A stretch of DNA of 64,000 nucleotides. Source: an uncultured Butyrivibrio sp. (GTDB taxonomy: Bacteria; Bacillota; Clostridia; Lachnospirales; Lachnospiraceae). Of the stretch, positions 18,417-20,732 are shown piece after piece (the first letter of the stretch is position 1; each line of letters begins with the position of its first letter). The notes beneath the pieces are model-generated. The model was not told the origin of the DNA. It worked only from the letters and a program-made list of their open reading frames with translations, and did no database searches. The stretch lies in assembly GCA_946536145.1 (NCBI GenBank), contig CAMNEA010000001.1, forward strand, positions 1 through 64,000, written 5' to 3'. A program made the position numbers and the translations under genes.

Positions 18417-19508
18417 TTACTTATCAATACCTTTTTCAAGGAACTCTGCCAGGTTGAACTCAATGTGCTCATTGGATCTTTCTACCGCAACCTTGGCCAT
18501 GTCGTGTTCTACCATTATTTTAACAAGTTCTTCAAAAGAAGTCTTCTGCGGATTCCAGTTAAGCTCCTTCCTGGCCTTGGAAGGATCACCCCAGAGGTTT
18601 ACTACATCAGTAGGCCTGTAGAAATCAGGGGATACTTCGATAAGAACCTTGCCTGTGGCCTTGTCATATCCCTTCTCATCTGCGCCTTCGCCCCTGAACT
18701 CAAGCTCAATGCCGGCATAGTGGAACGCAAGCTGGGCAAATTCGCGGACAGAGTGCTGAACACCTGTAGCTATTACGAAATCCTCGGGCTTGTCATTCTG
18801 AAGGATGAGCCACATGCACTCAACATAATCCCTGGCATATCCCCAGTCGCGAAGACTTGAGAGATTGCCGAGATAGAGCTTATCCTGCTTGCCCTGGGCA
18901 ATTCTTGATGCGGCGAGGGTTATCTTTCTTGTGACGAAGGTCTCGCCTCTTCTCTCGGACTCGTGGTTGAACAGTATGCCTGAGCAGCAGAACATATTGT
19001 AAGCTTCGCGGTATTCCTTTACGATCCAGAAGCCGTAGAGCTTGGCAACAGCGTAGGGGCTGTATGGATGAAAAGGAGTTTTCTCGTTCTGTGGTACTTC
19101 TTCAACCTTGCCGTAGAGCTCTGAGGTTGAGGCCTGATAAATCCTGCAGGTGTCTGCAAGACCGCAGAGGCGCACAGCCTCAAGGACCCTTAGGACGCCT
19201 GTTGCGTCAACGTCAGCGGTAAACTCGGGAGAATCAAAAGACACCTGTACATGTGACTGGGCTGCCAGATTGTATATCTCATCGGGCCTTACCTTGGAAA
19301 CAACGCCAAGAATACTCATTGAGTCTCCAAGATCGCCGTAGTGAAGGTGGAAATTCGGCTTGCCCTCAAGGTGAGCGATCCTCTCTCTGAAGTCAACCGA
19401 TGAGCGCCTGATGATACCGTGAACGTCATAGCCCTTCTCAAGCAGAAACTCTGCAAGATATGAGCCGTCCTGTCCTGTAATTCCTGTGATTAAAGCTTTC
19501 TTTGCCAT
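18417..19508 (-). CDS. gmd: GDP-mannose 4,6-dehydratase
   Basis: [65 protein letters not shown]. Confidence 0.96.
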
Positions 19509-19607
19509 ATCATATAACCTTTCGTGTAAAAATTATCGATTTGTGTTACGTTTTTTCTATTATATTTTCATGTTATTGCGTTTTAAATTCACTTTCTTGC
19601 CTTTCAT

Positions 19608-19636
19608 TTGCATTATCTTGATGACACAATTATACT
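19608..19636 (+). promoter_or_regulatory. Candidate sigma-A promoter for the AraC-family gene
   Basis: TTGCAT-(17 nt)-TATACT. Confidence 0.55.
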
Positions 19637-19653
19637 TATTACAAGAGTTGCCT

Positions 19654-19848
19654 GACAAAAGGTTGTCTGCGCATGCCCGGGCTGTACATTTCGAACAAGT
19701 CAGCTGAGCGGGCATATCGTGCTCGTCGGTACTTAGGTGGCGTACTTTGACACCTTAGTACCGCTACGAAGCACGACTGAGTGAGAGCGTCCCCGAAGCT
19801 GACTTGTTCGAAATGTACAGCCCGGGCATGCGCAGACGACCTTTTGTC
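19654..19848. repeat. ~195-bp near-perfect palindrome with 52-bp arms
   Basis: Arms 19654-19705 and 19797-19848 complementary with one mismatch (GACAAAAGGTTGTCTGCGCATGCCCGGGCTGTACATTTCGAACAAGTCAGCT); inner stems TCGTGC/GCACGA and GGTACTTAGGTG/CACCTTAGTACC. Confidence 0.96.
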
Positions 19849-19871
19849 TGAGGAACGATACGGAGGAAGAA

Positions 19872-20732
19872 ATGGATCAGAGGCTTTTTCAGGGAGAATT
19901 TGTATCATCGGACAGACTTCTTTATACGCCGTCTGAATTTGCGAGGTCAAACCTTTTATATTTGCAGGAAATTGGAAGACTGAAGGCCAGGAAAACCCAC
20001 ACCAGCAAGAGGCAGAACCTTGACTCCTTCCTGTTCTTTTATGTAAAGAGCGGGAGCGGGATAATAAACTACGGCGGCAAGGATTATCCGGTTCGTGAGG
20101 GCGACTGCGTGTTTATAAACTGCCGCAATCCGTATTTCCACAGGACAAGTGAGAACCTGTGGACACTTGAGTGGATACACTTTAACGGAGTGAGTGTGCT
20201 GTCAGTGTATTTAAAGTATCTTGAGAGGGGAGGACAGCCTGTCTTTCATCCGGACAGCCTTGAGGAAGCATCTTCTATCTGGGACAGTCTCAATGAGGTT
20301 GCGCACTCCGATGACTACATAAGAGACATCAGGATCAATGAGTACCTGTCAAGACTTGAGACACTTCTTATGAGCTTTAGCTGGAATCCTGAAATACAGC
20401 CTGCCGGCAACAATTACAAAACCGTGTTTGCTCTCAAGGAATACATAGATGTCAACTACAGGGAAAAGATAAGTCTTGATAAGCTAGCGGAGAAGTTTCT
20501 GACTAACAAGTATACGCTCTCGAGGAGCTTCAAGGAGCAGTTCGGCACATCAATAATTAACTATCTTCTTATGACCAGAATAACCAGAGCCAAGCAGCTC
20601 CTTCGCTTTACCGATGACACGGTCGAGGAAGTCGGGAATCTGTGCGGAATATCACCACTTTACTACTTCTCAAGGATTTTTAAACAGATAGAGGGCATAA
20701 GCCCCATGGAGTACAGACAGATGTGGAAATAG
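19872..20732 (+). CDS. AraC family transcriptional regulator (cupin sensor plus HTH)
   Basis: N-terminal cupin-like GGKDYPVREGDCVFINCRNPYFHR; C-terminal ISLDKLAEKFLTNKYTLSRSFKEQFGTSIINYLLMTRITRAKQLL...SPLYYFSRIFKQIEGISPMEYR. Confidence 0.93.
   Translation: MDQRLFQGEFVSSDRLLYTPSEFARSNLLYLQEIGRLKARKTHTSKRQNLDSFLFFYVKSGSGIINYGGKDYPVREGDCVFINCRNPYFHRTSENLWTLEWIHFNGVSVLSVYLKYLERGGQPVFHPDSLEEASSIWDSLNEVAHSDDYIRDIRINEYLSRLETLLMSFSWNPEIQPAGNNYKTVFALKEYIDVNYREKISLDKLAEKFLTNKYTLSRSFKEQFGTSIINYLLMTRITRAKQLLRFTDDTVEEVGNLCGISPLYYFSRIFKQIEGISPMEYRQMWK

Follow-up and report, generated by a model that had tools for sequence, protein, structure and literature searches.

Mobile repeats with a conserved, RNA-like fold are found in bacterial chromosomes, among them bcr1 in the Bacillus cereus group and BOX in pneumococcus. 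Integron attC sites conserve the boxes in their arms and are variable at the tip, and neither attC nor IS200/IS605 yields target duplications of 7-11 bp; duplications of this length are likewise not expected in HUH/Y1 transposition. Structures that are maintained for an RNA function tolerate G-U pairs but not A-C mismatches. The Correia (NEMIS), ERIC, RUP, and YPAL elements are ~200 bp or less, non-coding and intergenic, with terminal inverted repeats, target duplications and transcripts that would form long stem-loops (PMC2229807). BOX elements are also noted in PMC10969869, and the GTAG and CGTC tags are used to define superfamilies of REPs (PMC3733652).

In this report, a long palindrome upstream of an AraC-family gene (araC) is compared with these systems. 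The palindrome is located in a stretch of DNA of 64,000 nucleotides (the window). An earlier note on this DNA had proposed that the palindrome could be an RNase III-controlled leader, a transposed hairpin element domesticated as a leader, or a recombinase target. We conclude that it is very probably one copy of a non-autonomous, MITE-like family of mobile DNA hairpins with a structured, conserved tip and complementary arms. The hairpin family was not found in the literature searched and is absent from Rfam.

Structure of the hairpin in the window

The palindrome consists of two inverted arms of 52 nt each that are 98% complementary, with one mismatch, and that are separated by a spacer of 91 nt (Table 1). 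When the region is folded as RNA the predicted energy is -148.4 kcal/mol compared to -72.0 +/- 4.4 kcal/mol for shuffled sequences (z -17.5). The 52-bp arms with a single mismatch described in the earlier note are borne out by these values, and the palindrome of ~195 bp is found where it was placed, but the element as a whole is longer. The left end was set at 19645 (GAGTTGCC) by comparison with other copies and has one mismatch to the terminal motif GAGTYGCCCGRCAAAAG, and the fold extends the stem to about 19857-19859. The inner stems that had been described do pair inside the arms, but they are not nested stems alone: inside the palindrome, the stem meets a bulged apex hairpin, with a loop of 7 nt, and a small hairpin of the GNRA type in a three-way junction.

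Table 1. Features of the hairpin element and the surrounding locus (positions in the window)
Feature	Position	Strand	Basis
Whole hairpin element, very probably mobile	19645..19859 (right border approximate)	+ (strand with GNRA loop)	Left-end motif, stem length, absence in 26 orthologous intergenic regions
Left arm, P1 5' strand	19654..19705	+	Arm pairing
Right arm, P1 3' strand	19797..19848	+	Arm pairing
Match to covariance model R1: conserved core and inner arms	19687..19823	+	118 bits, E 1.5e-33, with the window copy itself among the model-building sequences
Apex hairpin P2: near-invariant CGTCGGTACTT / TAGTACCGCTACG, conserved CU bulge, 7-nt loop GUNYUUU	19725..19768	+	Invariant columns; loop and bulge counts, 89 copies
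Mini-hairpin P3, GNRA tetraloop (GAGA in the window copy)	19780..19790 (borders approximate)	+	Alignment, loop counts
AraC-family regulator (AraC_binding + HTH_18)	19872..20732	+	Domain content
gmd, GDP-mannose 4,6-dehydratase, divergent neighbour	18417..19508	-	Annotation; synteny in relatives
araC promoter block including TTGCAT-N17-TATACT, conserved in sister species	19590..19640	+	Orthologous intergenic regions
Ribosome-binding site GGAGG	19862..19866	+	Sequence
Outward promoter-like site TTGTCA-N18-TATAAT facing gmd	19629..19658	-	Consensus match only, 11/12

Distribution and mobility of the family

The genome of the window has three more full copies and one half copy of the element with the same core and different arms. 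Using DNA similarity alone, 17 of the 61 genomes in a first sample were matched, all from the same genus as the window. A first alignment of 27 cores, in which compensatory two-sided changes are present in 33 of the 40 predicted pairs, was used to build a covariance model. Of 79 genomes from the genus, 54 contain the element according to this model, with between 1 and 83 copies each, and the others have 0. In an order-wide sample of 295 genomes the element is present in 29, all from the same bacterial family; 9 of these belong to the genus of the window and 20 to 12 other genera, which gives 13 genera in total. The sole match outside the family in this sample is weak and partial (39 of the 135 model positions, E 3e-5). 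The element is thus essentially confined to one bacterial family in these searches. Collections of phages and plasmids contained no match to the element, and an origin from either was rejected. Similarly, Rfam 15 has no family that matches at the gathering score and a permissive scan of the window copy returned a chance match only, so a known Rfam family was rejected.

The tip is conserved among the copies while the arms vary from copy to copy yet remain complementary. In an alignment of 94 copies, two-sided changes are present in 38 of the 40 pairs, and the covariation score, calculated from this alignment after it was fitted to the covariance model, is 0.667 compared to 0.185 +/- 0.007 for shuffled alignments and at most 0.161 when the partners are slid. 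The bulge on the plus strand is CU in 71 of 89 copies. Full copies are about 150-215 bp in length, and shorter hairpins of 46-62 bp with the same ends look like internal deletion derivatives. Some copies are fused, as in an element of 321 bp that contains two cores (L218, 3189-3509) and at L085, and such fusions suggest that copies have recombined or inserted into each other. One genome of 100% completeness (G024) has 83 model matches, several of them identical, that adjoin further palindromic repeats; the ends of its copies are quite different (ATACTTTATTG; loci L092-L108).

Evidence for mobility comes from a second high-copy genome (G096) that has at least 42 copies and in which the contigs break at copies of the element. 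A small number of terminal-repeat types (GAGTYGCCCGACAAAAGC, GATGTTGAGGTCAAAAG, and GATGCCACCGACAAAAG) recurs in these copies, chimeras included. Perfect direct repeats of 7-11 bp flank 6 of the 15 copies for which both ends were recognised; when the flanks were exchanged in shuffles, direct repeats of 6 bp or more were present in a mean of 0.55 copies and a maximum of 4. The length of the target duplication varies between 7 and 11 bp, as seen in this one genome and in one nested case. In a nested pair arranged as ATTCTAA-90 bp-ATTCTAA-206 bp-ATTCTAA, the 7-bp repeat is present three times. Some genomes contain bursts of similar copies. At one locus (L141) there is a clean absence in a sister genome, with no target duplication there. 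Loss is also observed, with only the stem base kept in one species where its sister species has a full copy; L147 in a sister genome was rejected as an unoccupied site, as a deletion there has spared the base of the stem. The motif GMCAAAAG is present at both ends of 9 of 87 copies and control patterns never are; it marks some lineages only and was rejected as the terminal motif of all copies. Dispersed copies without coding capacity, terminal inverted repeats and an orthologous site that lacks the element, by which MITEs are recognised, are all found in this family. Four stretches between terminal repeats in one incomplete high-copy genome contain ordinary genes only and no transposase, and an autonomous partner in the stretches inspected was rejected.

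Insertion at the araC locus and placement of the copies

The gmd and araC genes form a conserved divergent pair in sister species. The promoter of araC lies where the earlier note had located it and the surrounding block (AATTCACTTTCTTGATTTTGATTTGCATTATCTTGACATGGAATTTATACTT) is conserved in the orthologous promoters; the GGAGG sequence and the ATG at 19872 are also as described. The element is missing from all 26 of the orthologous gmd-araC spacers in sister species, and the spacer is 363 bp in the window compared to 137-222 bp in 25 sister species and 316 bp in one. The araC ortholog with the 316-bp spacer (L114, genome G068) is preceded by a different imperfect hairpin, about 125 bp long, that is unrelated to the element. 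In the window, the element starts 8 nt past the -10 box and stops about 3 nt short of the ribosome-binding site. The promoter is conserved in the sister species, where the element is absent; its insertion in this genome therefore took place downstream of the -10 box and upstream of the ribosome-binding site. The comparison of orthologous spacers indicates that the window copy is a lineage-specific insertion into the araC leader. A target duplication is not readable at this copy because the -10 box and the ribosome-binding site are separated by sequence that cannot be aligned across species, and because the terminal repeat expected at the right end is not matched there. On the opposite strand, the TTGTCA of the putative promoter that faces gmd, a strong match to the consensus, is supplied by the left end of the element.

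It had also been proposed that the leader is nearly all hairpin, which agrees with our borders, as the predicted RNA start is almost at the left border of the element and the ribosome-binding site is ~3 nt past the right end. By landing at this position, the element would cause the araC leader mRNA to begin with a hairpin of ~215 nt. From its position, a leader or regulatory function for the window copy is possible. The conserved presence upstream of orthologous genes that is looked for in a cis-regulatory leader was not found at the 26 orthologs, and the hairpin is not a control device built for the AraC-family gene; any effect on araC expression is at most a by-product or a recent exaptation. 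For the idea of a transposed hairpin that was domesticated as a leader, the first part is upheld by the copies at unrelated genes, the target duplications at some of them and the 26 empty orthologs, and the second part is not.

By simple ORF calls, 86 of 87 copies are intergenic, and they are found in all four orientations of the neighbouring genes, in either orientation of the element and next to many unrelated genes, downstream as well as upstream. The earlier note had suggested a genome-wide search for further copies and would have regarded many copies in unrelated intergenic regions as the sign of a generic element, and this is what is observed. In 65 of 80 scored copies it is the right end, not the left, that lies closer to a start or stop codon; this count includes orthologous copies, and not all copies in it are independent. 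This polarity is not accounted for by pure chance insertion, and it may result from selection against separating promoters from genes or from a preference of the enzyme. The sense strand agrees with the downstream gene on the right-hand side in 33 of the 80 scored copies and is antisense to it in 47. Some copies are present at orthologous places across species with flanks that are only about 74% alike, hinting that some are kept by selection. An intrinsic terminator was rejected, as the hairpin is not followed by a terminator-like T run and T runs are not in excess.

Maintenance of the arms, alternatives and known systems

G-U pairs and A-C mismatches were counted in the copies, with RNase P RNA from the genus as the control. 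The modelled arm pairs contain 26 G-U and 28 A-C, and the full arms, aligned without RNA rules, contain 104 G-U and 153 A-C; in RNase P RNA there are 141 G-U and 5 A-C. Compensatory changes with tolerance of G-U on the RNA strand were thus not found in the arms when RNase P was used as the control. Because there is no excess of G-U in the arms, unlike RNase P, the complementarity of the arms is not kept by selection on the sense RNA, and it looks as if the pairing is kept at the DNA level. At one locus in two sister species (L143/L181) the core is identical and the arms have changed together on both sides; we infer that template switching in a DNA hairpin would produce this concerted change. 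The tip has a weak excess of G-U (20 vs 10 A-C) and keeps asymmetric features (the CU bulge and GNRA loop). Given the GNRA consensus and the weak excess, the tip could also work as RNA. The RNase P RNA of many species, including that of the window (470 nt), has an enlarged arm compared to about 350 nt elsewhere (L281-L286). An insertion of the element in RNase P RNA, considered from long matches, was rejected as the enlarged arm has no recognisable core.

As a mobile DNA hairpin, the element would be mobilised in trans by an enzyme that is produced elsewhere and that may recognise the terminal repeats, the tip of the folded single strand, or both. The tip would be held by selection for this recognition, and the arms would stay complementary as template switching in the DNA hairpin copies changes from one arm to the other. 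A more specific version, in which the folded tip and not the ends gives the element its identity, is tentative and on the whole rather doubtful. Here the single strand would be extruded and a dedicated enzyme would read its three-way-junction tip, or the corresponding RNA; template switching would rewrite the arms, and the ends could diverge freely between species with the element still moving.

That the hairpin is instead a dedicated RNA leader of araC, acting through an RNase III cut or as a stability or attenuation switch, is unlikely. Such a leader would explain why the hairpin fills almost the whole predicted 5' leader from the conserved promoter to the ribosome-binding site, and the strong RNA fold, the GNRA loop in the tip and the copies in which the sense strand agrees with the next gene are consistent with it. 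However, the element is absent from every ortholog, many copies are next to unrelated genes and antisense to the right-hand neighbour, the arms have no preference for G-U, and the T run of a terminator is lacking. The RNase III-controlled leader of the earlier note is not sustained, as the arms carry no sign of RNA selection, the copies occur in both orientations and at upstream and downstream sites, and the copy at araC is limited to one lineage.

It is similarly improbable that this is a REP-like element moved by a tyrosine transposase (RAYT), with a GTAG tag on the minus strand that forms the conserved bulge. The minus strand of the apex does read CGTAG-CGGTACTAAGG in most copies, and RAYT-like proteins of about 250-285 aa occur in the genus, but no bordering by the element is visible at the twelve Y1 genes inspected (L243-L254), and there are genomes with copies that have no Y1 match at E 1e-5, for example the complete genome G032. 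Additionally, the target duplications of 7-11 bp are unexpected for HUH/Y1 and favour a transposase of another chemistry. RAYT was rejected as the mobiliser, as its genes are present in the genus and those inspected are not bordered by the element. Most of the inspected RAYT-like Y1 genes are bordered by their own palindromic repeats of the GGGACGG type, a separate repeat family.

A bacterial SINE-like cycle, in which the sense RNA hairpin is reverse-transcribed and inserted, is very unlikely: the variable target duplications, the GNRA-type signature in the tip and the insertion polarity relative to genes would fit such a retro-element, but the arms do not tolerate G-U, and recent copies have a motif in common in their terminal inverted repeats, which points to a DNA transposase. 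It is likewise very unlikely that the element is a site at which a recombinase or an inversion system turns the interior around. The copies in opposite orientation beside the same gene in the window's genome (L008) and another species (L174) could be cited for this, as they may reflect inversion or independent insertion; the two copies differ in their arms and borders, which independent insertion explains equally well.

The mobile hairpin family is shared by at least 13 genera of one bacterial family and is a common non-coding feature of some genomes that is worth cataloguing, as assemblies break at it and its copies are found in leaders and after stop codons. Maintenance at the RNA level can be told apart from that at the DNA level with the pairing data, and the family therefore provides a natural test of how long palindromes keep their symmetry. 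The family could also be used to test whether a transposition enzyme reads a folded tip instead of the end sequence.

Likened by description, the element has the features listed for Correia (NEMIS), ERIC, RUP, and YPAL (PMC2229807) in common with them, the target duplications at some recent copies, and differs in that its ends are without TA. Unlike these elements, it has a structured tip that is conserved in 13 genera, and its outer arms evolve rapidly but retain their complementarity. It resembles bcr1 and BOX, also by description, as a mobile repeat with a conserved fold in a different host group. Like the GTAG- and CGTC-tagged REPs (PMC3733652), the apex stem is flanked by GTAG on the minus strand and CGTC on the plus strand. 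However, REPs are palindromes of 20-40 bp with a terminal tag and the element is about 200 bp, with the tags inside a hairpin of 150-215 bp, long inverted arms and, at some copies, target duplications, and it does not adjoin the RAYT-like genes inspected. As in integron attC sites and the end hairpins of IS200/IS605, a folded single strand with conserved extrahelical bases could be recognised; the element is the reverse of attC in that its tip is conserved and its arms vary. The unusual property of this MITE-like family is that the tip and the fold are conserved while the ends drift.
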